A stretch of DNA of 40,121 nucleotides, taken from positions 1 through 40,121 of IMG/VR virus record IMGVR_UViG_3300009553_000010; one strand, written 5' to 3'. Under the pieces are notes generated by a model. It searched no databases and was not told the origin of the DNA. It was given only the letters and a program-made list of their open reading frames with translations. Position 1 is the stretch's first letter, and each line of letters begins with the position of its first letter. Shown here one piece after another: positions 3,510 through 39,612 of this stretch. The position numbers were made by a program, and so were the translations under genes. Source of the DNA: a virus.

Positions 3510-5363
3510 TTAATCGATCTCCAAGAAACTATCTCCGATCGAAGCCTCGAGAAACGCCTCGCCCGGGCTCAATTCTAAGAAACTTTCCCCGGTGCTAATT
3601 TCGAGCCAAAGCGGTTGAGAGGGCCGCATGAACGGGGCGATCACGGCAAAATTAGCACCGCCCCCGGTGTAGCTGAACACCCCGCCCGCGGCCGTGAGCA
3701 CGTATGAGCTCGCCACACTCTTGAAAAGATTCGCATCGCTGCCGGTGTAGACAAAGACCCCGGTTGCGGCCTCGAGGATCCTCGAGACAAGCAATGCGGC
3801 ATCGCTGCCCTGATAAGAGAAATCGCCCCCCGCGGCCGCGAGCACCCGCGCAAGAAAGAAATTAGCCCCGTTGCCAACATAAGAGAAAGTGCCCGCCGCG
3901 GCCGATAGCAAGCCCCCCTTTGAAAGATTCGCATTGCCGCCGGCATAACTGAACACCCCGGCCCCGGCCGGCATGAGCCGCTTATAGAGCAAATTGGCAT
4001 CGCCCCCGGAGTATGAGAAAGTGCCGGGATTTGCGGCCAGCGTATAGGCCCCGGGCGAGGTTTTGAAAAGAGAGGCATCGGCACCGGCGTAATTAAATAC
4101 CCCGGTTGCCGCGGCGATAAAGCGGCCGATCAAAAGATTCGCATTAGCCCCGGAATATGAGAAAGAGCCATTTGCCGCGGCGAGCACTCGCCCAAGCAAG
4201 AAAGCGGCATCGGCCCCGGTATAACTGAAAGCCCCGGCCCCGGCCGTGAGCAAATTCCCTTTCGAGAGCCCGGCATCGCCCCCAGAATACGAATAGACCC
4301 CCGCCGCGGCGGCAAGCACCCTGCTATATAAGAAATTCGCATTGCCCCCGGCGTAACTGAAAATCCCCGCGTCGACCGTGGCCCCAAAATTTCTAAAAAA
4401 GAAAGCATCGGCCCCGGAGTATGAATAGACCCCCGCCGCGGCTGCAAGCAAATGGCCCCAAAGCGTACCGGCATCGCCGCCGGTATAGCTGAAAATCCCG
4501 GCGGCCGCCGAAAGCACCCTGCTATACAGAAAATTGGCATCCCCGCCCGAGTATGAAAACCCCCCATTTGCGGCCGTGATCCCATACCCGCGGGCAAGCC
4601 CGGCATCACCGCCTGAGTATGAAAAACCCCCATTTGCGGCCGTGATCTTATACCCTCGAAAAAGTCCCGCATCGCCCCCGGAATATGAGAAAGAACCGGC
4701 CGCCGCGGTGATCGTTTGCCCGGTAGAGGGCGGGATAAACGCGAAAGTGTATGAGCGCCAACTTTGCCCGCCGCCGGAAAAGGTGCCCATATTGACTTGG
4801 GTTGTCGTAGTTGCCGCGGCTTCGGTTTTATAGATAGCATTAAACCCGGCGAGAGTACCGCCCGAATCCGTGAGATTAAAGGCGATCGTCCAACCTGAGG
4901 GCGGGTTTCCACTTGTAAAGAGATCATTGGTTGCATGGGCATCTACGGCAATTACAAGGCGATCGATACCGGTTGTCGTAATGGCCGAGGCAATTGGGGT
5001 TGCCGGATTTACACCGTTTGTAAAAACCCCGCCCTCGAACGGGGTGCCCGTAGTAACGCACCCGCGCACGACAAAAACAAAAGCCCATTGATCTGTTGAG
5101 CCGGCCGTTATCGCGGGCCCGGCGGTGCCGGCACCGGTTGCCCGTTTCCAGAAAAGGGCAAAACCATTGTCTACACCCTCGCCCGAGCTGCCGATCTTAG
5201 TCCAGCCCGATGTGGCGGTTGTCATAGTGCCCGCCGCCTCATTCCAAGAAACCGCGATCAAGATATCATCGGCTTGATGGGTTGGCGGGGTTGGCGTTGT
5301 CGACGCGCCGCCGCTTGTGTCGACCGCGATCGCTCCCGCTGAGATAAAAGTTGGGGCCGCCAT
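3510..5363 (-). CDS. 617-aa virion protein with sixteen 22-residue repeats
   Basis: A 617-aa protein. Residues 1 to about 215 form a non-repetitive, Thr/Gly/Ala-rich domain (MAAPTFISAGAIAVDTSGG). From there to about residue 575 it consists of 16 copies of a 22-residue unit with the core F-S-Y-S-G-G-D-A followed by a variable hydrophobic part and A-A-A-G; two copies are four residues longer. The last 30 residues hold three copies of a shorter G-E-S-F-L-E unit. Such regular beta-rich repeats suggest a rod or fibre exposed on the capsid or neck, possibly an adhesin. A terminator hairpin lies just before the gene, so it may have its own expression control. No enzymatic motif. Confidence 0.85.
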   Translation of the reverse strand: MAAPTFISAGAIAVDTSGGASTTPTPPTHQADDILIAVSWNEAAGTMTTATSGWTKIGSSGEGVDNGFALFWKRATGAGTAGPAITAGSTDQWAFVFVVRGCVTTGTPFEGGVFTNGVNPATPIASAITTTGIDRLVIAVDAHATNDLFTSGNPPSGWTIAFNLTDSGGTLAGFNAIYKTEAAATTTTQVNMGTFSGGGQSWRSYTFAFIPPSTGQTITAAAGSFSYSGGDAGLFRGYKITAANGGFSYSGGDAGLARGYGITAANGGFSYSGGDANFLYSRVLSAAAGIFSYTGGDAGTLWGHLLAAAAGVYSYSGADAFFFRNFGATVDAGIFSYAGGNANFLYSRVLAAAAGVYSYSGGDAGLSKGNLLTAGAGAFSYTGADAAFLLGRVLAAANGSFSYSGANANLLIGRFIAAATGVFNYAGADASLFKTSPGAYTLAANPGTFSYSGGDANLLYKRLMPAGAGVFSYAGGNANLSKGGLLSAAAGTFSYVGNGANFFLARVLAAAGGDFSYQGSDAALLVSRILEAATGVFVYTGSDANLFKSVASSYVLTAAGGVFSYTGGGANFAVIAPFMRPSQPLWLEISTGESFLELSPGEAFLEASIGDSFLEID

Positions 5364-8276: not shown

Positions 8277-9089
8277 TTAATTTTCGAGGTTTGCTAACTG
8301 AATGCCAGCGTGAGCGAACCAATTATCGGGAGAAAGTGCGGTGCTTTCGGCGGCCGCGGCTTTGCCCTTTTCCGGATCATCATCATCGCTTGAGCTCCCG
8401 GTATCACATACGGCCCCGAGAGTAACGGCCGAGGAATGGATCAAATCGATTAATTTTTGATCCGAATCACTATTGCGGCGGCCTGCCTTGATCTCATCCT
8501 GCAACAAAACAAGCTGCGAAGCTATCGCGGCAAGCGGCATCATTATGAGGCCCTTTGCCCCGGCTGCGATCGTGGCCGAATTGCACCCATAGAGCACATC
8601 GCTTGTATCGTAAAGTTTTAATTCCCGAAGCTCGCGCACATTGCGGGTTTTCTCGGGATCGCCGGGCAAGGGCTCTGTTACCGTTGTGCTTTGGATCGTA
8701 TCGTAAGCAAAGCTCATTTCGGTAATATCATCGGCATCGATCGCGTTGAGGATCCAATCGGCGAGCTCGATACCCTTGTAATAATCGCGATCGACAAGCA
8801 GGCCCCCGGTTGCCTCGGGCGATTTTTGAAGTACCTCGAGGGGGAGCTCGGCCCGAGTAAGCTCGCGCAGTTCTTTGATCGATGCGATCGGCGGGTGCTG
8901 CCAAGAGTGATTCCAAAGATGTTTGCACCGCGGGGCCCCTTCGGAGATAGTTTTCGCGAAAGCCCCCGGGATAATGCGATCGCCGATCTCATCGACGTTA
9001 CCGAAAACCGCCGCGATACCAACCCGCCGGCGGCCCGATGCCTTTGCCTTGATATTGGTAAAAGCGAGCTGTTTGGTTTCGCGACTCAT
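8277..9089 (-). CDS. HK97-type prohead maturation protease (serine, S78-like)
   Basis: A 270-aa protein. Family signs are an early G-D-R-I-I-P-G-A-F (residues 36-44), the catalytic-histidine motif L-W-N-H (His61) and the serine motif E-M-S-F-A-Y (Ser126), followed by a L-Y-D-T-S-D-V strand. It removes the capsid delta domain during head maturation. The C-terminal ~60 residues are an acidic, low-complexity tail that the protease probably cuts from itself. No Shine-Dalgarno-like sequence is seen upstream; the leader is pyrimidine-rich (TTTTTCTTTTTTC). Directly upstream is the only rightward gene. Confidence 0.92.
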   Translation of the reverse strand: MSRETKQLAFTNIKAKASGRRRVGIAAVFGNVDEIGDRIIPGAFAKTISEGAPRCKHLWNHSWQHPPIASIKELRELTRAELPLEVLQKSPEATGGLLVDRDYYKGIELADWILNAIDADDITEMSFAYDTIQSTTVTEPLPGDPEKTRNVRELRELKLYDTSDVLYGCNSATIAAGAKGLIMMPLAAIASQLVLLQDEIKAGRRNSDSDQKLIDLIHSSAVTLGAVCDTGSSSDDDDPEKGKAAAAESTALSPDNWFAHAGIQLANLEN

Positions 9090-9154
9090 TGAGATTGAGA
9101 ATAGAAAAAAGAAAAATCAGTTATTTCTCATCCGAAAGTGAACAACCGCCCGCC

Positions 9155-9379
9155 ATGATCACACATAAGGGCATGAAAGCAAATAATCACATCGAACTAA
9201 CCGCAACCCAAACCGAAAACTTTATCAATGATGCCATGCTCGCCACGGCCGAGGCCTTTGATGCGATCGCCCGAGGTGATGGGCGAACCGCTGCCCGGTT
9301 GGCCCGCCGAGCCTACTATTGTGCATACCGGGCCCGTTACGGGGTGCCGGAATCTCGTCCCGATAACTTCCCCGGATAG
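9155..9379 (+). CDS. Only rightward gene: 74-aa protein, unknown function
   Basis: A 74-aa frame on the plus strand (MITHKGMKANN; the second Met at 9173 is an alternative start). Its codons match those of the phage's leftward genes (GCC, ATC, GAG, CGG dominate), which a chance frame opposite non-coding DNA would not show. Predicted all-helical, with an Arg/Ala-rich amphipathic stretch (T-A-A-R-L-A-R-R-A-Y-Y-C-A-Y-R-A-R-Y-G-V). A terminator hairpin follows 17 bases after the stop. It is divergent from the protease gene. No strong ribosome site. Real gene likely; function unknown. Confidence 0.6.
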   Translation: MITHKGMKANNHIELTATQTENFINDAMLATAEAFDAIARGDGRTAARLARRAYYCAYRARYGVPESRPDNFPG

Positions 9380-9395
9380 TGTTTCGCCATGAAAC

Positions 9396-9420
9396 AAAGG
9401 CCCCAAAATCGGGGCTTTTG
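9396..9420 (+). terminator. Terminator of the rightward gene
   Basis: GCCCC-AAAATC-GGGGC with flanking A/T pairs is followed by TTTTG on the plus strand, 17 bases past the stop at 9379. On the minus strand the same hairpin is followed by CTTTGTTT, so it may act weakly in both directions. Confidence 0.7.
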
Positions 9421-9427
9421 CCTTATC

Positions 9428-9442
9428 TAACAATATTGGTTA
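9428..9442. promoter_or_regulatory. Operator-like inverted repeat (TAACA-N5-GGTTA)
   Basis: Member of the genome-wide TAACA-N5-TGTTA set with one mismatch (TAACA-ATATT-GGTTA). It lies right after the rightward gene's terminator and about 340 bases upstream of the protease gene. On the minus strand it ends in TTAGATA, a possible -10, but no good -35 is seen. It may control a late transcript or the antisense direction. Confidence 0.5.
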
Positions 9443-9508
9443 AGTGTAAGGGTTTAGGGGTTTTATTCAAAAGGTATGCCCTCTCGCGCCCCTCTTCGGC
9501 GGCCCCTT

Positions 9509-9596
9509 GTAAAATGTTGATTCTACGGCCCCTTATCGAAAGGGTAAAAAGGTATTTCCTATATAGAGACAGGCTTTACCCTTTCACCCGTGAAAC
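9509..9596. repeat. Long intergenic repeat, copy B
   Basis: About 88 bp that align, at roughly three quarters identity by eye, with 38747-38837 in the same orientation. Shared blocks are TGTTGATT, GGTAAAAAGGTATT, CCTATATAG and a final GTGAAAC. Here 11-bp perfect arms GAAAGGGTAAA (9538-9548) and TTTACCCTTTC (9575-9585) flank the TATATAG core. The arms differ from those of the other copy on both sides together, so base pairing or dyad symmetry is kept. Confidence 0.75.
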
Positions 9597-9638
9597 ATCG
9601 CACCGCGCGGCCCCGTTTCGCCGGCAAAAACCAAAGCG

Positions 9639-9660
9639 GCCCCGGGCTCTCACCCGGGGC
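9639..9660. repeat. Perfect GC hairpin in the non-coding stretch
   Basis: GCCCCGGG (9639-9646), six-base loop, CCCGGGGC (9653-9660). No T-run follows on either strand, so it is not an evident terminator. Confidence 0.5.
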
Positions 9661-9737
9661 TCGCTCTGCTTTTATCGTCTATGCGCCGCGGGCGGGTATT
9701 GGCCGCCACGTAGAGGCAAACACATCTTAACACACAA

Positions 9738-9783
9738 AGCGGCCCGGTGATCTGCGTAGCTACTGCGAATCGTCCGGGCCGCT
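9738..9783 (-). terminator. Probable terminator after the portal transcript
   Basis: Ten-bp perfect arms AGCGGCCCGG / CCGGGCCGCT separated by 26 bases lie 16 bases past the stop of the gene at 9799-10248. On the minus strand the stem is followed by TTTGTGTGTT, an imperfect T-run; on the plus strand by CTGCCTTTT. It could end the terminase-portal transcript. Confidence 0.6.
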
Positions 9784-9798
9784 CTGCCTTTTGCCAGA

Positions 9799-12488: not shown

Positions 12489-13912
12489 TAGATTGTTACG
12501 CCCAAGTTGTTACTGTTCATTACCCCGTATCTGAAAGCATCCGGGTGATCATCGCCGCCCTCGCCATTTTCGTCACAATTGACCTTGAGCACATCCTCGG
12601 GATTTTTCGGATCATGCATAAGGGCCGGTAATCGCTCGATAAGCCCGGTGCACTTTGATGAGATTTTAAGCGATGGCTCGATCCCTTGTTTCTCATCGCC
12701 AAGCAGATCAACGATTTTGCCCCAACCCGGCCGCCTCGAGGCATTGGCGGCCCTGAGATAGATCCCATGCTCGGCAAAGTTATCCGCAAAGCTTTCGCCG
12801 GAATCGCCCTTTGTGGCGAACACATCGGGCCCGGCCACGGCGTTAATAAGATCCTCGACCTCGAGCCCCCATCGAGCGAGCATTTCCTTGATCCCCTCGC
12901 AATTCGAGCTTATGAGCTGATTTCGGGCGGCGAACTCATCGAGGCAGTATATGATCCCATCGAATTCGGTGAAGAGATAACAAACAGTCCAATGGCGATA
13001 ACCGTAATCGATCGCGATCCAAAACTCGCAACCCGCGGCCGCAAAATCAAAGAGATCTCTCGGCTCGATAACGTGCTTATCATGCCGGAACTCTTCGAAG
13101 TATTGCCCGGCGAATATATCCGGATCCCCATCGAGCCACGCTTTGCGTTTCCAGCCTGTCAAAGCTTGCAGCTTGGCGAGATAGAAACGATCGACCCGCC
13201 GGTTATCGTAAACCGTGGCGGGTATAAACCGGGTTGAGGTTTCGGCCCCGGCCCGGTAAGGCTCGAGAAACTTCTTTTTTAGAAAGGCATGCGAGAGGCC
13301 GCCCCAGTTGAACGTGTAATACATTCGGGGCTTAAAGCCCTCGATCGATGTGCGGTTTACGGTTTTGATATCGGCCAGCTTTGATTGTGAGAGCTGCTCG
13401 GCCTGCTCGATAAAGATGACGTCATACTCGAGAGAAAGGTATTGATTGATATCTTTTTCATACTGGAAGTGCCCGACCTTGATGCTCGAGCTATTCGGAA
13501 AAGAGATAACAGTTTGGGTTGGGCGGTGAGGTACCCGGGGTAAAACTTTGGTCGAGAGCTTTGAGATCGATTCGAGAGCCGAGCCGCTCTTTTCGCGTAA
13601 GAATAAGACGCTTAAACCATTAAACTTTTGGCAATCATCAATGGCGATCTGAGCGAAACCGCAATGGGTTTTACCGCCGCCGCGGGCCCCGCCATAACCG
13701 ATATCCTCGAGCTCATCGATATGATCGGCGGCTCGAGCGATCGCGTGAAACTCCATTTGCTTCGGTTGCGGAACGTAACCGGCAAGCAGAAATCGCTCGA
13801 GCGAGTCTTTAGGGATCCCCGAGGCTTTCGCCGCTTGGATCATCCTCATTGTAGAGGGCGGTACCCGCATGCGAGGGGCCCGAGCCGGCGGGGGTATCGG
13901 TATCATCACCAT
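12488..13912 (-). CDS. terL: Terminase large subunit
   Basis: A 474-aa packaging motor ATPase/nuclease. Walker A is G-G-A-R-G-G-G-K-T (residues 74-82), Walker B Y-D-V-I-F-I-E-Q (163-170), and the RNase H-like nuclease begins with A-I-D-Y-G-Y (Asp302) with a later G-P-D-V-F and D-D-H-P-D-A-F-R-Y near the C-terminus. The start is unsure: the long version overlaps the small terminase by 104 bases, and in-frame ATGs at codons 15, 22 and 24 are alternatives; no clear ribosome site supports any of them. Works with the small terminase and portal. Confidence 0.95.
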   Translation of the reverse strand: MVMIPIPPPARAPRMRVPPSTMRMIQAAKASGIPKDSLERFLLAGYVPQPKQMEFHAIARAADHIDELEDIGYGGARGGGKTHCGFAQIAIDDCQKFNGLSVLFLREKSGSALESISKLSTKVLPRVPHRPTQTVISFPNSSSIKVGHFQYEKDINQYLSLEYDVIFIEQAEQLSQSKLADIKTVNRTSIEGFKPRMYYTFNWGGLSHAFLKKKFLEPYRAGAETSTRFIPATVYDNRRVDRFYLAKLQALTGWKRKAWLDGDPDIFAGQYFEEFRHDKHVIEPRDLFDFAAAGCEFWIAIDYGYRHWTVCYLFTEFDGIIYCLDEFAARNQLISSNCEGIKEMLARWGLEVEDLINAVAGPDVFATKGDSGESFADNFAEHGIYLRAANASRRPGWGKIVDLLGDEKQGIEPSLKISSKCTGLIERLPALMHDPKNPEDVLKVNCDENGEGGDDHPDAFRYGVMNSNNLGVTI

Positions 13913-14318
13913 AAACTTTATCGATCGATGCCTGCAGGCCTACGTCGAGAGAGCCGGCCATATTGGCCGAGAGATCGAGCCGCTCGCGGTATTTCTCGGG
14001 CCGGTTGCCTTTGAGAAAGAACTCGAGCAACCGATCGCTTTTCTTGCGAATGGTGCCGACTATCTCGCCTTTGTAATATACGGGCTCGCGCCAACCTGTT
14101 ACCCCTCGCACGTGCAGCTCTTGCTCGGCATCGTCTACGATCGCAATCTCTGTTTGATCCCAAGCCTCTTTGAAATCGGCATCGCTCTTTTTGTGATCAT
14201 AGGCAACATTACGAGAGATCCCGGCGGCCTTGCAGGCTTTCGACACATTCCCGCGGGCCGAGCGAAGCCTCGCGAGAAACTTTTGCTTCTGATCATTTGA
14301 AAACGGTACCCCCTGCAT
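13809..14318 (-). CDS. terS: Terminase small subunit
   Basis: A 169-aa protein starting MQGVPFSNDQ, with AGGA eight bases upstream. Residues 12-45 form a helix-turn-helix of the terminase small subunit type (R-G-N-V-S-K-A-C-K-A-A-G-I-S-R-N-V-A-Y), followed by a K-K-S-D-A-D-F-K-E-A-W helix, a V-R-G-V-T-G-W-R-E-P-V-Y-Y-K-G beta part and an L-K-G-N-R-P-E-K-Y-R motif, all common in this family. It recognises the packaging start. The upstream gap of 46 bases holds an operator-like site and a TGTCA-N3-TGACA palindrome. Confidence 0.92.
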   Translation of the reverse strand: MQGVPFSNDQKQKFLARLRSARGNVSKACKAAGISRNVAYDHKKSDADFKEAWDQTEIAIVDDAEQELHVRGVTGWREPVYYKGEIVGTIRKKSDRLLEFFLKGNRPEKYRERLDLSANMAGSLDVGLQASIDKVYGDDTDTPAGSGPSHAGTALYNEDDPSGESLGDP

Positions 14319-19757: not shown

Positions 19758-20339
19758 CTATGCCCCCGAACCGATCAATTTAGTGATATTGTCCGAAAGC
19801 TTGCCCTTGCCGAGATCCGCGGCCGGATTAGTGATCGAGAGGCCGCCGGTTGCCCGGGCGAGCTTATAGAGAAAGTCCCGGCCGAAACCGCTCTCGGGCC
19901 CGATAAAGATAGTGTCGATCTTGCTCGAGAATTTGCCGGCCTCTTTGAGAGTACCCGCCTGATCATCCGGGCAACCGTCACTGATCAAGATGAGCCGGAT
20001 TCCACACCCATCGGCCATCTTGAGCATGCGAAGAGCGGCGATCATATCGGTACCCGATCCTAAATATTGAGGTACCCCGCCGGGGCAAAAGATCGCATGA
20101 TCGCTAAAAGAGCAAACGGCGATCTTGCCCGCATTCTCGGCCTGTAAGCGTTCAAGCTCGCGGCAAGCCGCGTTGTATCGCGTATCATCGCCCTCGGCGT
20201 CATGGGCCCCCATAGAGCCCGAAGTATCGACCATTGCGACACACTCGACGTTAAGAAAGCTCGAGGCAAGCGTTTCGTTATTCTTTTGAGCAACCGCCCC
20301 GAGGCTGCCCGCCACGATCGACTGATTTTTATTCGCCAT
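19758..20339 (-). CDS. Von Willebrand factor A domain protein (193 aa)
   Basis: I chose the ATG giving MANKNQSIVA, with GGAG upstream. The vWA fold is marked by the complete metal site (MIDAS): D38-T-S-G-S42, T97 (G-T-D) and D121 (I-S-D-G). The body reads as a stand-alone domain with no membrane segment. vWA domains usually bind partners through a metal ion and often work with AAA ATPases, but no such partner is next to it; the neighbours are a small zinc protein, the J-domain protein and MazG. Confidence 0.85.
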   Translation of the reverse strand: MANKNQSIVAGSLGAVAQKNNETLASSFLNVECVAMVDTSGSMGAHDAEGDDTRYNAACRELERLQAENAGKIAVCSFSDHAIFCPGGVPQYLGSGTDMIAALRMLKMADGCGIRLILISDGCPDDQAGTLKEAGKFSSKIDTIFIGPESGFGRDFLYKLARATGGLSITNPAADLGKGKLSDNITKLIGSGA

Positions 20340-20532
20340 TTTTAAGATCTCCATTATTAAAATGCTGAGGTATTCGCGCAGAGGCCGCGCATCCTCTTGC
20401 TATCCCCCACCGCCGGCCGCAAACCGAACAAATGATCCAATCGCTGCCAATGTTGCGAGGCTCGACTAAATCCACGGCAAGCCTAGACCCTGAGCACCGC
20501 CGCTTTCCTTTATTGCTCTTTCTCGTTCCCAT
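20329..20532 (-). CDS. Small Cys-containing basic protein (67 aa)
   Basis: Start at MGTRKSNKGK just past the J-domain gene's stop; an alternative ATG four codons upstream would overlap that stop. Very basic N-terminus, then D-W-I-I-C-S-V-C-G-R-R-W, a metal-binding or nucleic-acid-binding pair. It overlaps the vWA gene's start by 11 bases. Function unknown. Confidence 0.6.
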   Translation of the reverse strand: MGTRKSNKGKRRCSGSRLAVDLVEPRNIGSDWIICSVCGRRWGIARGCAASARIPQHFNNGDLKNGE

Positions 20533-20534
20533 AT

Positions 20535-21425
20535 TTACACCCATGCGATCGCGTGAGCATCGCCCGCCCAATAAGAGATCATTACCTGTCCAAATTGATT
20601 CTCGATATCGTTCCACTCAAGAATTTCTTGCACAATCAAGCTATTCAGCTCGCGCGTAGCTTTCACCCGAAGCATGCCGCATCGAAACATCGGGATAAAA
20701 TATTTTGAGGCAAACCGGGCCCCGCCCCGGCCAAAGCTTTTCGCCTGAGCCTCGAACATTAAGCCCGCGTTATACCGGGCCCGCCGCATCGGATCATTGA
20801 GGATATCGAAAGCCTCTTTACACTTCTCGAACATTTCCCGGGCCTCGGGCTCTTTGCAGATATCCGGATGCCATTGCCGGGCGGCTCGCTTATAGGCTTT
20901 CTTGATATCGATCGCCAAAGCCTTTTGGTCGACCCCCAAGAGCCCGTAATAAGTTGCCGGGGCCGAGGTATCGACTTGCTTGAACCATGAGCGCAAGACT
21001 TTCTCGGGGATCTTTGCCGACCATGAGCCCCCGGAGTGTACGCTCGCCGCGTTACCATCGCGGCAACTGCCGATATAGTCAGCTTGAAAAGTGATCTCGA
21101 AAACCTCGGGGGCCGGTGCAATTACGGTAGGCATTTGCACATCCCCACCATAAGCGGCATCGATAAGCATTTTCAGCTTGTCGGCATACTGAGGGGAGAC
21201 AAGCCAGCATTTGCTCGGGGCATCCCATGAGCGCCCGGTTGTCGGAATCTCGATCTTGAGCCGCGAAACAAAATCGGCATTGTAGGGGGTTTTAACTTTG
21301 AGCCCGCCGGATTCGGCGGTAACTGAAATGCTGCTATTGCGGGGGCCGCTCGAGCGGCCTCGAGAGCATGCGAATCCGGTGAAAGCTTGCCCGGTATCCG
21401 GATCGAAACCAACAAATTTTGCCAT
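20535..21425 (-). CDS. J-domain (DnaJ-like) co-chaperone with N-terminal extension
   Basis: A 296-aa protein (MAKFVGFDPD) with GGAG in the leader. Residues 158-220 form a J-domain: Y-Y-G-L-L-G-V, helix II K-A-Y-K-R-A-A-R-Q-W, the HPD signature at 186-188, and helix III with A-F-D-I-L-N-D and a R-A-R-Y-N end. No Gly/Phe region or zinc finger follows, so it is not a whole DnaJ. Residues 50-92 resemble the short HARP-like module of SNF2 helicases (R-L-K...S-W-D...W-L-V). The phage probably uses it to direct host DnaK to a specific client, for example in replication. A strong hairpin (21453-21472) lies in its leader. Confidence 0.85.
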   Translation of the reverse strand: MAKFVGFDPDTGQAFTGFACSRGRSSGPRNSSISVTAESGGLKVKTPYNADFVSRLKIEIPTTGRSWDAPSKCWLVSPQYADKLKMLIDAAYGGDVQMPTVIAPAPEVFEITFQADYIGSCRDGNAASVHSGGSWSAKIPEKVLRSWFKQVDTSAPATYYGLLGVDQKALAIDIKKAYKRAARQWHPDICKEPEAREMFEKCKEAFDILNDPMRRARYNAGLMFEAQAKSFGRGGARFASKYFIPMFRCGMLRVKATRELNSLIVQEILEWNDIENQFGQVMISYWAGDAHAIAWV

Positions 21426-21452
21426 TTTTCTATACTCCAAAGGGTTTTGATC

Positions 21453-21472
21453 GAGGGGCCGCGGGGCCCCTC
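21453..21472. repeat. Strong hairpin in the leader of the J-domain gene
   Basis: Eight-bp arms GAGGGGCC / GGCCCCTC with a four-base loop, 28 bases upstream of the start codon. No T-run on the minus strand, so it is more likely a leader structure than a terminator. Confidence 0.5.
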
Positions 21473-21576
21473 TCAAAGCACCTACCGCGGATTATTTGCA
21501 TCAAATCCGTTTCGACGACTGGCCGGCGAGTCTTGCACGTAGAGATCAAGCGGCATCGCCAGCGTAAAGAGCCCCG

Positions 21577-22023
21577 TTACCGGGGTACGATCTCGAGCAA
21601 ACAATACTCGATCGACTCATCTGTACCGCCGCCGAGATCCGGATCGCTAAGGCCCCACATATTTTTGAGCCGCTTAACCCGCCGGTAACCGGTTGGAACC
21701 TCGAGCCCGGAACACCGGCCCGCAATAAATAAATGCGTTTCGAGGGTACCGCCGCCTTGAGGCAGGATATAAACGATCGAAGCAACAAATGTAAGATTGC
21801 CCTCGGCATCGTAAACCCCTGACTTGCCGTGATAGGAAGTAGAGCCCGCCGGCACCGTTGCGGTAACGATCGGGTATCCGGTCGAATTGCTGCCCGCCGG
21901 AATAAAGAACTGAGCGAACCCGCTACCGCCCTGAGCCGAAGTGTTACATGTTAAGCATGCGATCATGCTCACGAAAAGGATCACTAAGACCCCCAATTTA
22001 ACCCAAACTTTATAACTGATCAT
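21577..22023 (-). CDS. Secreted or lipid-anchored small protein under an operator promoter
   Basis: A 148-aa protein with a clear signal peptide: M-I-S-Y-K-V-W-V-K then a hydrophobic core L-G-V-L-V-I-L-F-V-S-M-I-A-C. Cys23 could be a lipobox cysteine, or cleavage may follow T-S-A. The mature part is beta-rich (Y-P-I-V-T-A-T-V-P-A-G) with a Cys pair. It has its own promoter with a perfect operator-like repeat in the spacer, 70 bases upstream. A surface-exclusion or envelope role is plausible; family not recognised. Confidence 0.7.
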   Translation of the reverse strand: MISYKVWVKLGVLVILFVSMIACLTCNTSAQGGSGFAQFFIPAGSNSTGYPIVTATVPAGSTSYHGKSGVYDAEGNLTFVASIVYILPQGGGTLETHLFIAGRCSGLEVPTGYRRVKRLKNMWGLSDPDLGGGTDESIEYCLLEIVPR

Positions 22024-22088: not shown

Positions 22089-22117
22089 AACCTAACATTA
22101 AATGTTAGGTAAGTCAA
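22089..22117 (-). promoter_or_regulatory. Promoter with TAACA-N5-TGTTA operator in its spacer (for 21577-22023)
   Basis: On the minus strand TTGACT, 17 bases, TAGGTT. The spacer and -10 hold the perfect 19-bp palindrome CCTAACATTAAATGTTAGG (22091-22109, 9-bp arms, single centre base). A bound dimer would block RNA polymerase. This is one of the two most symmetrical members of the set. Confidence 0.75.
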
Positions 22118-22476: not shown

Positions 22477-24468
22477 TTAATCCTCTTTCTCGTCGGTATC
22501 AACATAATTTCGGGCCGGCGGCATATCGCCCGGCACCGCGGCCGCTTTCGGCTTGGCCCCGCAGTATTGACCATGTGAGGGCTTCTCGAGAAACCCATCT
22601 TTGAAAAGCTCATCAACCGCTTTCTTGATCGCATCCTCTTTGAATTCGGCCTCAAAGAGAGTAATGAGATCGGCCTTTGTAACGGTTTCCGGATATTGCA
22701 CCGTTACCATGTGCCGGCGAATTGTTTTGTATGCCGTTAGCTTTTCGGCCTGCACGTAATGGGTTGCATGAAACCATCGATCGGCCTCGAGCTTAAAGAC
22801 CCGGGTATAGTTTTGCCCGCCATCGGTCTTACGCTTGGCGCACTCGACTGTTACCGGCTCGCCTTTCGACACATCGCCAAACATATTTATGACGGTACGA
22901 GAAAGGGCCTGCAGGGCCGAGGCCCCGCGGCCGGCATGCACCCCGGCATGTTCGAGCTCATTTTTCTTTTTGCCGTAATGGTGAGCGAAGAGAAAAGCGC
23001 AGTTACCGGTGTAAGCCATTTTTAAGAGAGGCTTGATAACTTTTTTCGTTACTTCGGCATTAGAGTTTTCGTCGTTAAGATCATAGGCCGCGGAAACATT
23101 GTCGACAATAATAAACTCGACCCCGTTTTTCTCGATGAGCTCATTTGCCCATTTTTCATGGGTATTGAACTGAAAGAGCTCCCCGCCCATGAGGCCTTTT
23201 GGGATCACAATATAATTTTCTTCTAGCTCTCGAACCTCGCCCGGGGTAAACACTGTGAACATTTGCCCGAGATCCCTTTGCACATCCTGCGCGTCATTTT
23301 CAAAATCGAAATACGCGATCTTTACCGGCCTCATACCCTCATAAAAAGGCTCGAAAGGCCGGCCGGCCGCCATGCACATTCCGATATTTCTCAAGAGCGT
23401 AGTTTTGCCGGCGTTTGTTGCGGCTTGGATGATCGCGATATCCCGCTTGCCAATGTGAAAACCTAAAATTTCTTTCTCTTCGAAAACCTGAGCCATGAAA
23501 TCGCGGAATAGATAGGGCCTGAGCGTGTTTTCGTGATCGGGCGGGGCATTCGGATCAAGAGGGTCCGCGGCGGGATCGATCGGCGTTTGCGGGGCATATC
23601 GCCCGACTGAGAAAGCGATGTGCCGGATCTCATCATCCCCGAGCGGCGGGGTACAAACCCGCTGATTTTCGATATTAAGGGCCGCGTAGATCGCCCCCTC
23701 GCTTAGCCCGCCATGCCTGAGCCGCCCGGCCACGCTTGTCAGCGTTTGATTGCGCGAGCCCTGCGATATTGCATCCGGCATCACAACCCCCGGCGGGGGC
23801 GGCGGTACAACGAAAGACGCGGGGCCCGCCGCTGCTACCGGCCCGGTGCCGTTACTCGCGCCGTTTGCCGTTGTCGATACCGGGGGCGGGGCTTGGGCCT
23901 GCAGTTTATCGATCCAATCTTTCGGGAATTCGGCGAGCTCCGAATGCGAGTTTTGAAACTCATATCGCTTACCGCTCGCATGTATCGAGGGCGGGGCCAC
24001 TACATAACCGCCATCGCCGCGCACATCGATAAAAGGCCCGAGCCTCGATGCCGAGTTTTTGATATCGATCCCGGCCGGGTATTTGTAATAGAAGTGCAGG
24101 CCCGCCCCGGTCTTTACTTTCGGTGTCGTGAAAATCGTTAGATCCACATCGCCAAAGATAAGGCTCGAGCTATGGGCCCCTTTCGCCATATCAACATCGA
24201 GCACGACTATGCCCGACCCGGGGCCGGTTGCGATCCCGATATTCGCCTCGGGCCATTGCTTAAACCATGCCTCGATCTGAGCAAAATCCTTGCTCGCGTC
24301 GAGGCTGCCGTTTTTTGTAAGAGGGTGTTTACCGGGGCTTGGGCAGTCAACTTTTCCACATGTGCATTTTGCGTCTGATCCGATCGAGTGAAGAGGCATT
24401 ACGGCCCAACCCCATTCACTCACATAATTAAGAGCGAAATCGAGATTCGTAAGCACTTGAGTATTCAT
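22477..24468 (-). CDS. Bifunctional primase-polymerase / helicase (replication protein)
   Basis: A 663-aa protein starting MNTQVLTNLD; the long upstream extension is shadow frame. Residues 1-190 are a prim-pol (N-terminal bifunctional DNA primase/polymerase) domain with V-L-D-V-D (Asp91, Asp93), G-L-H-F-Y-Y and D-V-R-G-D-G-G-Y-V-V-A-P-P. A Pro/Ala-rich linker follows, then a RecA-like helicase/ATPase with Walker A A-T-N-A-G-K-T (350-356) and Walker B F-I-I-V-D-N, and a small winged-helix-like C-terminus. This is the only recognisable replication enzyme; the phage must borrow a host polymerase. Confidence 0.92.
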   Translation of the reverse strand: MNTQVLTNLDFALNYVSEWGWAVMPLHSIGSDAKCTCGKVDCPSPGKHPLTKNGSLDASKDFAQIEAWFKQWPEANIGIATGPGSGIVVLDVDMAKGAHSSSLIFGDVDLTIFTTPKVKTGAGLHFYYKYPAGIDIKNSASRLGPFIDVRGDGGYVVAPPSIHASGKRYEFQNSHSELAEFPKDWIDKLQAQAPPPVSTTANGASNGTGPVAAAGPASFVVPPPPPGVVMPDAISQGSRNQTLTSVAGRLRHGGLSEGAIYAALNIENQRVCTPPLGDDEIRHIAFSVGRYAPQTPIDPAADPLDPNAPPDHENTLRPYLFRDFMAQVFEEKEILGFHIGKRDIAIIQAATNAGKTTLLRNIGMCMAAGRPFEPFYEGMRPVKIAYFDFENDAQDVQRDLGQMFTVFTPGEVRELEENYIVIPKGLMGGELFQFNTHEKWANELIEKNGVEFIIVDNVSAAYDLNDENSNAEVTKKVIKPLLKMAYTGNCAFLFAHHYGKKKNELEHAGVHAGRGASALQALSRTVINMFGDVSKGEPVTVECAKRKTDGGQNYTRVFKLEADRWFHATHYVQAEKLTAYKTIRRHMVTVQYPETVTKADLITLFEAEFKEDAIKKAVDELFKDGFLEKPSHGQYCGAKPKAAAVPGDMPPARNYVDTDEKED

Positions 24469-24559: not shown

Positions 24560-25150
24560 CTAGAAACCGATCGCGGGATCCGGCACCGCCGAAACGGCCG
24601 GGGCCGCCGGCGTTGCAACTTGCGGCTGCGCGGCTTGGGCTTGCGGATTCGCTTTTTGCTGCTCGACCCATGCCTTTTTGCTTTCGTAATCGAGGGCCTC
24701 GATCGCCGGCATGTTCTCCATGAGCGGCATGATCGCCCCGATGTTGGCATAAGTCTTATCGCCCGACTGAGCATGTACAACCGAAATGATCGCGTTGCGG
24801 CCCGTAAGATCGATATCGACCCCCGGGGGCTTGAGCTCGGCCTCAGTAAGATCATGGCCCCGCCACGCGAGCAAGAAAGCCCTTAGCCCGCTCTTCTCGC
24901 CGAGCGTCATGGCATTCAGCTTTTTCGAGCGAACCTCATACCGCTTGCCGGTTTCGGGATCGACCTTATTGAGCTGAAAAACGTATTGAATGGGCCAGAT
25001 CATGCGGGGCTCATCCTTTCCCGTTTTGTCGTTTTTGTAGATCTGCTCTTGATGCCCCCAATCGAGCAACTCGCAACAGATCCCTTGATATTGCCCAACC
25101 GGGGCAAGCACGAAATTGCCCGTTTCCTTGTGTTCAACGTGAAAACTCAT
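24560..25150 (-). CDS. SSB-like / DUF669-type replication-associated phage protein
   Basis: A 196-aa protein (MSFHVEHKET) with AGGAG 13 bases upstream. The order Y-Q-G-I-C-C-E-L-L-D-W-G, a middle P-I-Q-Y-V-F-Q-L beta part, K-R-Y-E-V-R-S-K-K-L-N-A-M-T-L-G-E-K-S-G-L-R-A-F-L-L-A-W-R-G, then an acidic/Pro/Ala tail is typical of the phage family that is often annotated as a single-stranded DNA-binding or recombination-associated protein and lies next to the replicase. The OB-like core plus disordered tail fits an SSB. Placed directly before the prim-pol gene. Confidence 0.65.
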   Translation of the reverse strand: MSFHVEHKETGNFVLAPVGQYQGICCELLDWGHQEQIYKNDKTGKDEPRMIWPIQYVFQLNKVDPETGKRYEVRSKKLNAMTLGEKSGLRAFLLAWRGHDLTEAELKPPGVDIDLTGRNAIISVVHAQSGDKTYANIGAIMPLMENMPAIEALDYESKKAWVEQQKANPQAQAAQPQVATPAAPAVSAVPDPAIGF

Positions 25151-25346: not shown

Positions 25347-25372
25347 ATTATCATACCTAACAGAATTTGTTA
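25347..25372 (-). promoter_or_regulatory. Operator (TAACA-N5-TGTTA) and TATGATAAT promoter element
   Basis: TAACA-GAATT-TGTTA (25358-25372) overlaps the last codons and stop (TAG) of the upstream zinc-finger gene. Immediately downstream on the minus strand is TATGATAAT, a good -10 for a transcript starting near 25340. The -35 is weak. This would drive the structured leader and the SSB/prim-pol genes. Confidence 0.6.
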
Positions 25373-25725
25373 ATCAGTTTGTGCCGCTCGAAATGCTTTC
25401 GCATAAAATTATCGAGCACTTGCTCGGGCGGTACCCCGCCGGCACCGGGGTCGATCACCCCGCGGAGCTCTTGCACTTCCCCGCACTCGATACAGGTAAC
25501 GGTGTCGGCCTCGCCGATGAGGCTTACCCGCACATGCTCGCTCACCTTTTGCAGCTTTCGAAGCCTCGGCCAGCTCGGCACTTTTGGATTTAGCACTTTG
25601 GCAAAAACCTTGCCCCGAGCATCCCGATGCTTAGTTTCCACATGATCGCTCACGGCCTTTTTCTCGGGGGCGGTAAACCCGCAAGAATTGCATCGAAAAT
25701 TCGGATTTATCTGTAGCTCTGCCAT
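25357..25725 (-). CDS. Zinc-finger protein with two metal sites (122 aa)
   Basis: MAELQINPNF start. The first site is a C2H2-like finger: C-N-S-C-G-F then V-S-D-H-V-E-T-K-H (residues 12-33). The second is C-I-E-C-G followed much later by H-F-E-R-H near the C-terminus. The middle is basic. Likely DNA- or RNA-binding. Its stop codon lies inside an operator. Function unknown. Confidence 0.7.
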   Translation of the reverse strand: MAELQINPNFRCNSCGFTAPEKKAVSDHVETKHRDARGKVFAKVLNPKVPSWPRLRKLQKVSEHVRVSLIGEADTVTCIECGEVQELRGVIDPGAGGVPPEQVLDNFMRKHFERHKLINKFC

Positions 25726-27114: not shown

Positions 27115-27200
27115 TGCGTTAAAAGAGCCGCGATAGTGCCGGCGGCCGCGGCAAGAATAAGCATCGAGAGAAAGAAACCGGCGATCTGTAAGCGGCTCAT
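27111..27200 (-). CDS. 29-aa single-span membrane micro-protein
   Basis: MSRLQIAGFFLSML with a hydrophobic run to residue 27 (I-L-A-A-A-A-G-T-I-A-A-L-L). Both ends overlap the neighbouring genes by four bases (ATGA), a classic sign of coupled translation, and the membrane segment is well formed. No function known. Confidence 0.6.
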   Translation of the reverse strand: MSRLQIAGFFLSMLILAAAAGTIAALLTQ

Positions 27201-27634
27201 ATCCAAACACCCCCGCAGCTTTCACGCTTGCGCTCATCCTCGGGCTGTAGATACGGCATCGCCTCATCGCCCGGATCGAAATAGCCCGAAGTAAAGGGAT
27301 CGAGCATTGCGGCCGTATAGAGAGCGATGAGCCGCTTGGCTGCCTTATGCCAGCAAACGGCCCCCTGCAGCTCTGCCATACAACCGTGGCGGCCATCGGG
27401 GCCGAGCTCATAAACAAGGTTCGAGCTTTGCGACCAAATGAGAAAGCGATCCGCGGCCGGCTCATAAGTCATAAACTCGCCCTGCTCGCGGATCCTGATC
27501 ACAGCTTTCGAAATCGCATTTATCACGCTTTTTTTGTGGGCCTCATTGAAATTAAAGGCCCGGTTATGCTGCACTTTCTCGATCGACTCGCTCACGATCG
27601 CAGCAAATACGGTGCGATTCTCGATCGCGATCAT
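27197..27634 (-). CDS. SWIM-like zinc-finger protein (145 aa)
   Basis: MIAIENRTVF start, overlapping the previous stop by four bases. The middle reads W-S-Q-S-S-N-L-V-Y-E-L (residues 67-77) followed by H83-G-C85, eight residues, C94-W-H96 and K-A-A. That is the layout of a SWIM finger (CxC-xn-CxH) with the first Cys replaced by His. SWIM fingers bind DNA or proteins. The N-terminal 50 residues are helical. No enzyme domain attached. Confidence 0.68.
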   Translation of the reverse strand: MIAIENRTVFAAIVSESIEKVQHNRAFNFNEAHKKSVINAISKAVIRIREQGEFMTYEPAADRFLIWSQSSNLVYELGPDGRHGCMAELQGAVCWHKAAKRLIALYTAAMLDPFTSGYFDPGDEAMPYLQPEDERKRESCGGVWI

Positions 27635-28073: not shown

Positions 28074-28102
28074 AGCCTAACATAATATGTTAGGCCCTGC
28101 AA
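28074..28102 (-). promoter_or_regulatory. Early promoter with operator in its spacer
   Basis: On the minus strand TTGCAG, 17 bases, TAGGCT. The 21-bp perfect palindrome GCCTAACATAATATGTTAGGC (28075-28095, 10-bp arms around one base) fills the spacer and -10. It lies 25 bases past the repressor gene's stop and drives the early operon beginning at 28013. A repressor dimer here would shut the early genes. Confidence 0.78.
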
Positions 28103-28126
28103 GCGAAAAGATTTATTTTGAGAAAT

Positions 28127-28339
28127 TTATTTTGCCGGCTCGGCGAGCAAGATCTCCCGGATATCGAGCCCGATAAAATTACACATTCGGAGCAAGAGCT
28201 CGTAAGAGACTTGCTTGCCCTTTTCGGCCCGGTTCACCGTCATTTCAGAGATCCCGAGCTCGGCGGCGATCTCTTGCTGCGTGTGTTTCTCGGCCCGTTT
28301 CTTGGCGAGCTTTTGGTTGTCGTAATGTTGGGCGTTCAT
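28127..28339 (-). CDS. XRE/Cro-family repressor (70 aa)
   Basis: MNAQHYDNQK start; the ORF reading continues upstream but out of the gene. Residues 16-66 are an XRE helix-turn-helix domain: H-T-Q-Q-E-I-A-A-E-L-G-I-S-E-M-T-V-N-R-A-E-K-G then L-L-L-R-M-C-N-F-I-G-L-D-I-R-E-I. No separate C-terminal dimerisation or peptidase domain, as in Cro-size proteins. TAACA-N5-TGTTA operators sit at both ends of the gene, so it very likely binds them and controls itself and the early operon. Only about 6 bases of leader are predicted, as with lambda cI from its maintenance promoter. Confidence 0.88.
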   Translation of the reverse strand: MNAQHYDNQKLAKKRAEKHTQQEIAAELGISEMTVNRAEKGKQVSYELLLRMCNFIGLDIREILLAEPAK

Positions 28340-28352
28340 AATTGCAGGCTTG

Positions 28353-28381
28353 AGCCTAACATTTTTTGTGAGGATGAGCAA
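28353..28381 (-). promoter_or_regulatory. Promoter of the XRE gene with operator
   Basis: On the minus strand TTGCTC, 17 bases, TAGGCT. The spacer and -10 hold CCTAACATTTTTTGTGAGG (28355-28373), one mismatch in the right half. Only 13 bases separate the -10 from the XRE start codon, so the message would be almost leaderless. The broken half-site suggests weaker repression than at the early promoter. Confidence 0.7.
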
Positions 28382-30026: not shown

Positions 30027-30754
30027 TGCCCCGCCCTCACATAGACCGGGCCCTCAGTACCGACCGGGGCGCAAGCTATCGGTTTCGATGCAACAAGGCC
30101 GCGGGCCTCTTCACCGGGCGGCATTGACCAATGAGGATGTATATCTCCCTCGATCGCCTTAGCGAGAAAGACCCCAATTGCGTTTGTGTATTCGATGGCA
30201 TGCTCGCCCTCGTTTCGGGCCGAATTCTGCAAATAGGGCCAATAATTCTCATTATCGAAACTTTCGGGTTGGGGTAACACGATATAAAGCGGGGCCCGCT
30301 GAGTGCCGTCGCTCCAAGTGTTTATAACGGTGCCCGCGGTTTGAATGCCGCTTGTGATAAGTGCCGGCGTTCCGTCTTGATTAGTCGCCTGCTTTTTTAT
30401 CATCCAAACATTGTAATGGCCGGTTGTCCCGTATTGGCCCCAAGTCGGATTATGGTATTGGGCCGAGCGAATGGTTTGAGTGAATCCCGCGATCACCCGC
30501 TCGGCGATCTTGCGCCGGGCTTCGGGATCGGTGATGCCTGTCTCGAGAAATACATAGCCCCCATCGGATCGATCGATCTGACAATCCGGGCCGCAACCCA
30601 TTTTCGGCAAGCAGATATTTTGGGCGGTTGTGCCGGCATGAGTCGGCGGGCATTGCGTCCCGCCCGATCCGGTGCTCGAGGGGGTTTTCTCGCCCCCGCA
30701 TGCGAGCAATAAAACAATGACGATAAAAACACTGGCCGTGATCAAGATTTTCAT
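30023..30754 (-). CDS. Lipoprotein of the lysis module (243 aa)
   Basis: MKILITASVF start overlapping the endolysin stop by four bases. The signal sequence ends in a good lipobox L-L-A-C (Cys19) followed by Gly-Gly, so it should be lipid-anchored in the outer membrane. Mature part: Ser/Thr/Gly-rich linker, Cys-rich segment (C-L-P-K-M-G-C-G-P-D-C), then a globular domain with N-E-G-E-H-A-I-E-Y-T-N-A. That His/Glu pattern resembles a metal site, but no family is recognised. Candidate o-spanin or cell-surface protein. Confidence 0.75.
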   Translation of the reverse strand: MKILITASVFIVIVLLLACGGEKTPSSTGSGGTQCPPTHAGTTAQNICLPKMGCGPDCQIDRSDGGYVFLETGITDPEARRKIAERVIAGFTQTIRSAQYHNPTWGQYGTTGHYNVWMIKKQATNQDGTPALITSGIQTAGTVINTWSDGTQRAPLYIVLPQPESFDNENYWPYLQNSARNEGEHAIEYTNAIGVFLAKAIEGDIHPHWSMPPGEEARGLVASKPIACAPVGTEGPVYVRAGQ

Positions 30755-32076
30755 TCTATTACCTCGTTTGTAGTTTTTACCTCGCTGCCGGTTTTCTTGA
30801 ATTCAACCGTATTATGATCTTGCGAACCGGCGAGATCGGCCTTTTTTAGATTGAGCTTGTTTGCCCGCTCGGCCGATCGATCATATATCCAAGCCCCGGC
30901 GGCAAAGACCAAAAGGGCAAAAACAAGCCCGGCAAGTATAAGGCCCAAGACCAAACCGAAACTTGCAAGATCCGACCGATCGGCCCCCTCAACCACTTTT
31001 TCGGCCCCTCTTTTTACTACTAAATTGGCAACCTCATTGCCGCCGCATGTGGCGGTGATCGATGCCACGACCCCGCCCACTAAAGTAAAGATCCAAGTGA
31101 TCACCCGGGCGAAAGTGCTCGGCCGCTCTTTGTCGAGCAATTGCGGGCTTAACTGATTATTGCTCGGGGTTGCTCCCGGAGCCGCCCCGCTCGCGAGATC
31201 GGCGGTTTTTCCGGCCTGCATGGCCTCGAGATCCTCGGCGGTTGTATCATGGGCATGAGCATCGGCGGCGGTTGACTGTGAGCCGGAAATAGCGGCGCTA
31301 GCATGATCATCGAATGTTGCTGAATTGGGGAGAGCCCCCGGGTTTTGCGGGGCCGCCGCCGAACTGTTTACCGGGTGAGCCGAGCCGCCCGGAAATAAGA
31401 TTGCATCGGTAAGCTTAAAACCATGCACATCGAGGGGCAAAGTAAGATTCCAATTGAGCCGCTTGATCTGATCAAGAAAAAATTGGGTGCGATACGCGGT
31501 TTTCTTGAGTCGAGCGGTGCCGGTAAGCCATGCATGCCGCTTTTTTACATAAGCGGTGATCCATTCCCGCTCATACTCTTCGGGCTTGATCGAGGCCGGG
31601 AGCTCGAGCTCGACACGATCCCGGATCTTGCCATAAGAGCCGTGATTCATTGAGTCATAAATCACGGCAAGCGAAAGGGCACAAACGAAATTCGAACCCT
31701 CGCAAGCGTCGAGGGCCGGCTCGAGATAATTCTCAAACGCGATCTCTCTTTGCGCGAGCTGCATCAAGGGATCATCGCCGAGCTCGGCAAGGGCTTTTTT
31801 AAGGGCCTTATGATTGCCTAGCCTAGTGATGTTTATTTCAACCTCGAAATCGGGCATCGCAAAATCCACAATGCGAGGCAAATCACCGCCAAGCTTTTCA
31901 AACCGCTTGAGCACCGCATAAAGCGAGCCCGATTTGTGGGTAAATTGTGAAGTGCCATAAGAGATCCCGGCGCCATCATCCAAGACGGCAACCGCCGAAT
32001 AATCCCCAAAGGGCTTACTTGTTTCGAAGATCTTAACGATCGCGAGGGCAATGGTTTTTGCTCTTTCGCTAAACAT
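30751..32076 (-). CDS. Endolysin with two C-terminal membrane segments (441 aa)
   Basis: Residues 1-215 form a lysozyme-superfamily domain, most like GH46 chitosanase/muramidase types: Glu18 in I-F-E-T-S, then D-D-G-A-G-I-S-Y-G-T-S-Q-F-T (33-46) and an S-G-S-L pattern. A Ser/Ala/Pro-rich linker follows (230-320). Residues about 325-344 and 373-397 are hydrophobic membrane segments separated by a short charged loop, and a polar tail ends the protein. Endolysins are normally free or carry an N-terminal anchor; two C-terminal segments suggest a holin-like or membrane-tethered form. The operator at 32086-32104 lies just upstream. Confidence 0.82.
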   Translation of the reverse strand: MFSERAKTIALAIVKIFETSKPFGDYSAVAVLDDGAGISYGTSQFTHKSGSLYAVLKRFEKLGGDLPRIVDFAMPDFEVEINITRLGNHKALKKALAELGDDPLMQLAQREIAFENYLEPALDACEGSNFVCALSLAVIYDSMNHGSYGKIRDRVELELPASIKPEEYEREWITAYVKKRHAWLTGTARLKKTAYRTQFFLDQIKRLNWNLTLPLDVHGFKLTDAILFPGGSAHPVNSSAAAPQNPGALPNSATFDDHASAAISGSQSTAADAHAHDTTAEDLEAMQAGKTADLASGAAPGATPSNNQLSPQLLDKERPSTFARVITWIFTLVGGVVASITATCGGNEVANLVVKRGAEKVVEGADRSDLASFGLVLGLILAGLVFALLVFAAGAWIYDRSAERANKLNLKKADLAGSQDHNTVEFKKTGSEVKTTNEVIE

Positions 32077-32085
32077 GGGAGAAAT

Positions 32086-32104
32086 GCTAACCCAAAATGT
32101 TAGC
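32086..32104 (-). promoter_or_regulatory. Operator in front of the endolysin gene
   Basis: GCTAACCCAAAATGTTAGC, TAACC-N5-TGTTA with 6-bp outer arms. The minus-strand TAGCAT it ends in is a possible -10 only 7 bases from the endolysin ATG, so a transcript would be leaderless; no clear -35 is present. It sits in the 38-bp gap between tail hub and endolysin. Confidence 0.55.
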
Positions 32105-38852: not shown

Positions 38853-39215
38853 TTATAAGACGTTTGGATCATCATCCGGATCGATCGGATCCTCGCCGCT
38901 CTCTTCTCTTTCCTGCTCAGCCCGGGCCTCGGCCCGGATCCTTTCGATAAGGGCTTTCACATCGCCGCCCAAAAGTCCGGTGCTCATCACCGCGAGGCTC
39001 TTGATCAAAGCATCGAGCCGGGCGAGGGCCCGTTTGTTTTGAAATTTCAAAACCTCTTTCGCCGCGGCGAGATCGAGATCCATCGCGAGCTGACTATGAT
39101 CTGCGATTTCTAAGAGCTCGCTTGGCCTTTTTCCGAATAGGTGACCCGTTATGCCGAGGCTTAACAGATTGTCCCGATTCGTTACGAAACTCCGCAAGGC
39201 TCTCGCCCTGCTCAC
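38853..39215 (-). CDS. Tail assembly chaperone, frameshift (gpT-like) part
   Basis: A 120-aa frame beginning with GTG inside the C-terminal part of the upstream chaperone and in a different frame. No ribosome site precedes it and a stop lies just upstream in its frame, so independent translation is unlikely. It overlaps the upstream gene by 122 bases and is the +1 (equally -2) frame. A run of six G at 39215-39220 (minus strand GGGGGGT) marks the likely slip site. This is the usual tail-chaperone arrangement, giving a fused product of about 252 aa that guides tape-measure assembly. The mid part is helical, the end acidic. Confidence 0.72.
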   Translation of the reverse strand: MSRARALRSFVTNRDNLLSLGITGHLFGKRPSELLEIADHSQLAMDLDLAAAKEVLKFQNKRALARLDALIKSLAVMSTGLLGGDVKALIERIRAEARAEQEREESGEDPIDPDDDPNVL

Positions 39216-39612
39216 CCCCCGACCAAATCCAGCGCATTATCGCCTCAAAATCCTCGGGCAAGATATCCTCGGGCGAGAGCTCATCATCGGCGGGCCCGCG
39301 ATCCGGTTCGCCCGGTTTCTCGATAAAGATCTTGGGCTCGAGGCAACAATACTCGAGCATGCGCCGGCCCATGTTTTGAGAGTCGACAAAATCTTTCTCG
39401 GTGTAATGCTTGAGCACTATCTCATTCGCCTGAGCTTTATCGGCCTGAGCAACTAATTGCATCTTGGCGGCGAGCGAGGCCGGCAAGAGGCCCGTAGTTG
39501 TCCACTGTTGAATTGGGGCGAGCCGCATGAGAAAGACGGCCCCCGAGGGCAGGGCGAGCGATTGGGTGACTTGTTTTTGCTGAGCTTGTTTCCTGTATTC
39601 GTTTGCTTTCAT
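39094..39612 (-). CDS. Tail assembly chaperone, zero-frame (gpG-like) part
   Basis: A 172-aa protein (MKANEYRKQA). The N-terminus is short and Gln/Lys-rich, then F-L-M-R-L-A-P-I-Q-Q-W and helices; the last ~45 residues are basic and overlap the second frame. It lies directly before the tape measure gene, where tail chaperones always lie. An operator-containing promoter precedes it by about 20 bases. Confidence 0.75.
   Translation of the reverse strand: MKANEYRKQAQQKQVTQSLALPSGAVFLMRLAPIQQWTTTGLLPASLAAKMQLVAQADKAQANEIVLKHYTEKDFVDSQNMGRRMLEYCCLEPKIFIEKPGEPDRGPADDELSPEDILPEDFEAIMRWIWSGGEQGESLAEFRNESGQSVKPRHNGSPIRKKAKRALRNRRS
39214..39220 (-). promoter_or_regulatory. Probable programmed frameshift site (six G)
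   Basis: On the minus strand the zero-frame codons read TCG GGG GGT GAG; a +1 or -2 slip on the G run moves ribosomes into the downstream frame, which opens there. Phage Mu is known to use a -2 slip on a similar G-rich run in its tail chaperone genes. Confidence 0.55.

Follow-up and report, generated by a model that had tools for sequence, protein, structure and literature searches.

Genome and cro locus

On the minus strand of a phage genome from the IMG/VR collection, a short gene for a 70-residue XRE-class repressor stands between two copies of an inverted repeat, each accompanied by promoter-like sequence elements. The whole stretch of DNA analysed (IMGVR_UViG_3300009553_000010, positions 1 to 40,121; 40,121 nt) is called the window below, and G001 and G004 are two related phages described in the next section. 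The features of the locus, from cro promoter to early gene, are as follows:

28376..28381, minus strand: putative -35 element (TTGCTC) of the cro promoter, at 17-bp spacing
28357..28371, minus strand: predicted operator 5' of cro (autoregulation), TCACAAAAAATGTTA; 19.0 bits with the relatives' matrix
28353..28358, minus strand: putative -10 element (TAGGCT) of the cro promoter, at 17-bp spacing and overlapping the predicted operator
28127..28339, minus strand: cro, the 70-aa XRE (HTH_3) repressor gene; Pfam HTH_3, E = 2.4e-9
28097..28102, minus strand: putative -35 element (TTGCAG) of an early promoter 3' of cro, aligned with TTGCAT in G001 and TTGACA in G004
28078..28092, minus strand: predicted operator 3' of cro, TAACATATTATGTTA; 24.1 bits, aligned with G001 2507 and G004 2911
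28074..28079, minus strand: putative -10 element (TAGGCT) of the early promoter 3' of cro, aligned with TAGGCT in G001 and TATATT in G004
27197..27634, minus strand: 145-aa early gene 3' of cro, common to the window and both relatives, where it occupies the same place; 44% identity to G001 2006-2407

The first 123 bases of the window are identical to the last 123, and the record is therefore most simply read as complete, a circularised genome of 39,998 bp (~40 kb), siphovirus-like in character. The called genes lie on the minus strand and include the packaging, head and tail functions expressed by terminase subunits, portal, protease, major head protein and tape measure, along with a Prim-Pol, a DnaJ-domain protein and a GH46-type lysin. 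By our own gene calls, which are not a curated annotation, 8.8% of the genome is non-coding. The DnaJ-domain protein (20535-21476) and a VWA-like protein (19758-20354) lie between the replication and packaging genes in all three phages. A 617-aa protein (3510-5363) consists mostly of a ~20-residue repeat (AAAGxFSYSGGDANLL) and has no PHROG match. The 709-bp gap between the portal and protease genes (9090-9798) holds no convincing gene, has terminator-like hairpins on both strands, and is matched in G001 by a short gap only.

A genome-wide search for integrase-family matches detected none, no HTH_3 match beyond the 70-aa protein was found in six frames of the window, and no PHROG match among the remaining ORFs points to a lysogeny function. 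Neither Rfam families nor tRNAs were found. INPHARED holds no near DNA-level match (20 kb queried) and no match for the XRE protein; single-protein scans with the XRE protein and TerL returned no matches, and a genome-contig scan gave one weak XRE match only, in a bacterial MAG.

The cro product is a small single-domain protein with one HTH by both Pfam and a structure model, the latter placing its XRE fold close to CylR2, the DNA-binding domain of ImmR, and 434 Cro. Over 70 residues it shares 53% and 49% identity with the corresponding proteins of G001 and G004, and its start codon was set by a conserved MNA start. In all three phages the cro start (28339 in the window, 2771 in G001, 3174 in G004) lies closely 3' of the predicted -10 with no evident ribosome-binding site, which suggests that the cro mRNA is leaderless or nearly so.

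Two related phages

One relative, G001 (IMGVR_UViG_3300043639_000040), was reached through a viral-contig scan for CCTAACATNNNATGTTAGG, and the other, G004 (L028; IMGVR_UViG_3300023267_000006), through alignment of the Prim-Pol; further scans yielded no third. Many structural and replication genes are syntenic between the window and both relatives, with amino-acid identities to the window mostly of ~50-69% and of 33-45% for some, the tape measure among them. G001 and G004 are closer to each other than to the window. Each begins, in its first ~600 bases, with a gene containing short tandem amino-acid repeats, which is probably an assembly break.

Both relatives look temperate. On the strand opposite cro, each carries genes for a CI-like XRE protein, a short secreted protein, an ImmA-like protein and an integrase, identified in G001 by Pfam (HTH_3, Peptidase_M78, Phage_integrase) and in G004 as homologues of these. 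Genes for the CI-like XRE protein, the ImmA-like peptidase and the integrase were not detected in the window as recognisable families, and the relatives' proteins themselves gave no significant match there. The window's XRE gene is thus orthologous to a gene that, in syntenic temperate phages, diverges from cI. Since no opposing CI was found, we call its product a Cro orthologue and not half of a working switch; in this comparison, which covers two sister phages and no outgroup, it would most likely be Cro from a former CI/Cro switch.

Each relative has four operator-like sites in its immunity region, at 2507, 2529, 2807 and 2856 in G001 and at 2911, 2933, 3211 and 3260 in G004, and in both phages dyads stand on either side of cro. 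The outermost base pair is broken as C/A, uncompensated, at three of the four sites in each relative, and the 5-bp spacer is kept. The other G001 match at no more than one mismatch, at 30570, scores only 5.0 bits with the matrix described below. The window sites at 28357 and 28078 belong to the immunity region, as their counterparts do. In all three phages the site 3' of cro falls at aligned positions inside TTG-N17-TAnnnT, which ties 28078 to a putative conserved promoter-operator; the G004 version, TTGACA-N17-TATATT, has 11 of 12 consensus bases. The 28357 site occupies the same region as the relatives' cro-proximal sites but stands at a different distance from cro. A second perfect dyad, GTTGGGTTATCCAAC, lies in the cI-cro gap of both relatives and is absent from the window, and is a candidate CI site.

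The dispersed dyads

A preliminary description of the window, made from the sequence alone, reported eight TAACA-N5-TGTTA dyads, four of them perfect (22093, 25358, 28078 and 39632) and four with one mismatch (9428, 14348, 28357 and 32088), and our scan recovered every one. At up to one mismatch the eight copies compare with 0.45 expected (Poisson p = 3e-8), and the four exact copies with 0.012 (p = 9e-10). Among all 5-mer half-sites combined with spacers of 0-12 in this genome, 13,312 dyads in all, this one ranks first in over-representation; the p-values are small against that number of tests, so the enrichment survives correction for the search.

The same description placed the dyads in or at the edge of gaps between genes, with two of them flanking the XRE gene, and this too is borne out: seven of the eight are wholly intergenic by our gene calls, 25358 runs into the final bases of ORF 25357-25725, and 28357 and 28078 lie upstream and downstream of cro, respectively. 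It had also paired a TTG-type -35 with a -10 around four of the dyads. We find TTG and TAnnnT on the coding strand at all four, spaced 17 bp apart at 22093, 28078 and 28357 and 18 bp at 39632, against a background of 1.9% over intergenic positions (p = 9e-6, in a test chosen after the claim had been seen). The remaining sites (9428, 14348, 25358 and 32088) have no convincing promoter in register. Whole-genome consensus promoter scans gave no excess of sigma-70-like sites, and the promoter assignments accordingly draw on orthology and on how the elements are phased with the dyad.

The sites beyond the immunity region are the following:

22093..22107, minus strand: predicted dispersed operator, strongest of all; 28.8 bits, in the spacer of TTGACT-N17-TAGGTT, upstream of a 148-aa gene (21577-22023)
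32088..32102, minus strand: predicted dispersed operator, 11 bp 5' of the GH46-type lysin gene (30751-32076); 15.9 bits
9428..9442, minus strand: predicted dispersed operator, with a terminator-like hairpin after it, in the 709-bp gap that precedes the protease gene (8277-9089); 14.7 bits
39632..39646, minus strand: predicted dispersed operator; 14.2 bits, in the spacer of TTGTCT-N18-TAGCCT, upstream of a tail-region gene (39094-39612)
25358..25372, minus strand: predicted dispersed operator that runs into the end of ORF 25357-25725 and precedes gene 24560-25150 and the primase gene by ~200 bp; 13.5 bits
14348..14362, minus strand: doubtful operator 5' of the terminase small subunit gene (13809-14318); 10.5 bits, background level

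The bit scores come from a symmetric matrix that was trained solely on the eight sites of the relatives and then run on the window. Its top seven window matches are seven of the eight reported sites, which, together with the occurrence of the same motif on both sides of the orthologous gene in two relatives, upholds the proposed association of the dyads with the XRE gene. In a check with 300 simulated genomes the expectation was 0.16 matches per genome reaching 13.5 bits, and the reversed genome gave none; 25358 falls just below the 13.5-bit cut in this count, so that six window sites are counted. The eighth site, 14348, ranks tenth, at a score where about one random match per genome is expected. 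Set against the simulated background, then, support is good for five dispersed sites and lacking for 14348. The layout first proposed had the repressor acting on packaging, early, replication, lysis and tail transcription; the early, replication, lysis and tail neighbours hold up, but packaging depended on 14348, the weakest site, and is not supported.

Conservation in relatives that keep the gene is similarly divided, extending to the immunity-region sites but not to the genome-wide spread, bar one or two candidates in G004. One of these, at 24053 (17.8 bits), is an extra strong candidate located in the portal/protease gap, the same gap as window 9428; the other, at 15832 (14.5 bits), falls within a gene orthologous to the one behind window 39632. 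These coincidences are suggestive only, and the matrix scan gave no extra dispersed candidates in G001. The dispersed sites were also considered as debris of an old immunity region, an idea we rejected because they are scattered over several distinct gaps and G001 has none in those places. A rough count of dispersed sites against lineage-specific genes gave no significant link.

What reads the dyads

It is probable, in our judgement, that the Cro of a lineage in which the relatives have a complete CI/Cro switch reads the dispersed dyads and acts as a phage-wide brake or timer. Most likely a Cro dimer would bind TAACA-N5-TGTTA within or next to promoters and block initiation; where the predicted operator stands between -35 and -10, a bound dimer would stand in the way of polymerase. 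At 28357 Cro would limit its own synthesis and at 28078 it would dampen the early operon, while at least five further sites (22093, 32088, 39632, 9428 and 25358) would put replication, lysis and tail units under its control. By matrix score, 22093 and the sites around cro stand highest and those of the lysis, tail and replication units lower, a gradient that invites the speculation that replicating genomes titrate a small autoregulated pool of Cro and so free the weaker sites of late genes. Several points count against the Cro model: TP901-1 operators of similar layout are read by CI (PMC7250872), the dispersed sites are nearly absent from both relatives, four sites (9428, 14348, 25358 and 32088) have no convincing promoter in register, and repression of lysis and tail genes is unusual for a Cro protein.

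The strongest competitor, which we nonetheless think unlikely, holds that the dyads are CI operators left behind when CI was lost, that Cro reads some other sequence, and that the main effect of the sites now is sensitivity to the CI of a related prophage in the host. D29 reportedly remains sensitive to the L5 repressor. The relatives carry sites on both sides of cro, the TP901-1 operators OR, OL and OD, one of them in distal mor, are read by CI and not by the Cro-like MOR (PMC7250872), and D29 has kept its sites with no repressor of its own (PMC5712189). Leftovers, however, would not be expected to outnumber the sites of relatives that still have CI, and the dyad that does disappear along with CI is a different one, GTTGGGTTATCCAAC in the cI-cro gap. 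With Cro alone remaining in the window and the sites nonetheless more numerous there, we favour Cro over CI as the reader, by inference.

Somewhat less probable again is the reading in which only the two immunity-region sites matter and the dispersed ones are chance occurrences or have no effect. The near absence of dispersed sites from the relatives would fit, as would the background score of 14348 and the several sites that have no promoter in register. Against this, scores of 13.5-28.8 bits are reached by five dispersed sites, compared with an expectation of 0.16 matches, the dispersed sites are intergenic, and the strongest site in the genome is itself a dispersed one, 22093, set in a promoter-like spacer.

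A host regulator as the owner of the sites would be in keeping with the host-type promoters, but it is very improbable given that the motif flanks cro in three phages and is almost confined to the immunity region in the relatives. Least probable of all are RNA hairpins acting as terminators or processing sites in place of DNA operators: the 28078 dyad does extend to a 12-bp stem (-16.3 kcal/mol), but five of the eight sites fold at only -1.7 to -3.4 kcal/mol, T runs are mostly missing, and the relatives break the outermost pair with no compensating change and keep the spacer.

Returning to Cro as the reader, a further step is conceivable, and we would put it forward only tentatively, as rather doubtful. 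After CI and integrase were lost, Cro may have been promoted from local switch protein to phage-wide regulator of a lytic phage, its operators spreading to replication, lysis and tail promoters, with titration timing the late genes in place of CI or a dedicated late activator.

Comparison with known systems

The window protein is small, single-HTH and Cro-type, like its counterparts in the CI/Cro (CI/MOR) switches of 434 and TP901-1. The relatives also resemble TP901-1 (OR, OL, OD) in having a divergent CI gene and operators both in the cI-cro gap and behind cro (PMC7250872). The window departs from such switches in that CI, ImmA and integrase are missing and the operators are genome-wide.

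The preliminary description had seen a stoperator-like scheme rather than a cI/Cro switch, and on this point it needs revision, the protein being orthologous to the Cro of a conventional switch, of which this phage lacks the CI half. As in the cluster A mycobacteriophages (L5, TipsytheTRex), the sites are spread across mostly intergenic positions of the whole genome. The L5 stoperators, however, are 13-bp, asymmetric and oriented, number more than 20 and are bound by a two-domain monomer (PMC9283540), whereas the window has eight symmetric sites and a single-HTH protein of 70 residues, not a two-domain repressor of ~180. The arrangement is one of dispersed-operator repression, not a true stoperator system.

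D29 is a deletion derivative of an L5-like temperate phage that lost its repressor and kept the sites (PMC5712189). The window is similar in its synteny with temperate phages, its missing lysogeny genes and its repressor-type sites. Unlike D29, which retains a working integration system, it is without CI and integrase and keeps Cro, and it has more sites than its temperate relatives. Dispersed operators are also known for the P1 C1 repressor, with 22 (PMC8546580), but there the sites are 17-bp and asymmetric and C1 is a lysogeny repressor, not a Cro. MrpR of SP-beta recognises a 15-bp SPBRE in about ten promoter regions of one phage (PMC10516654); it has a tyrosine-recombinase fold and maintains lysogeny, whereas the window has an HTH_3 protein, no integrase-family match and no recognisable lysogeny genes. 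The window thus differs from the dispersed-site precedents in site symmetry, in protein family and, above all, in having the Cro half without the CI half; in the part of the literature covered, no such Cro-only case was found described.

Should binding be confirmed, the window would hold a Cro repressor that has survived the loss of its switch and acquired a genome-wide regulon. Relatives that are temperate and have immunity-region sites, set beside a CI-less phage with dispersed ones, would then offer a direct comparison bearing on how phage control is rewired after lysogeny is lost, and would raise the question of whether one 70-aa repressor is enough to time a lytic cycle.

Similar palindromes occur elsewhere. 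In L005 one site is present, and no XRE match was found there. L007 (IMGVR_UViG_3300044638_004509) is an 8-kb fragment of a different phage, with terminase and portal genes of its own and no relative of the XRE protein found on it; four perfect TAACATC[AT]GATGTTA palindromes, at 456, 572, 1119 and 1765, are arranged there around two small genes.
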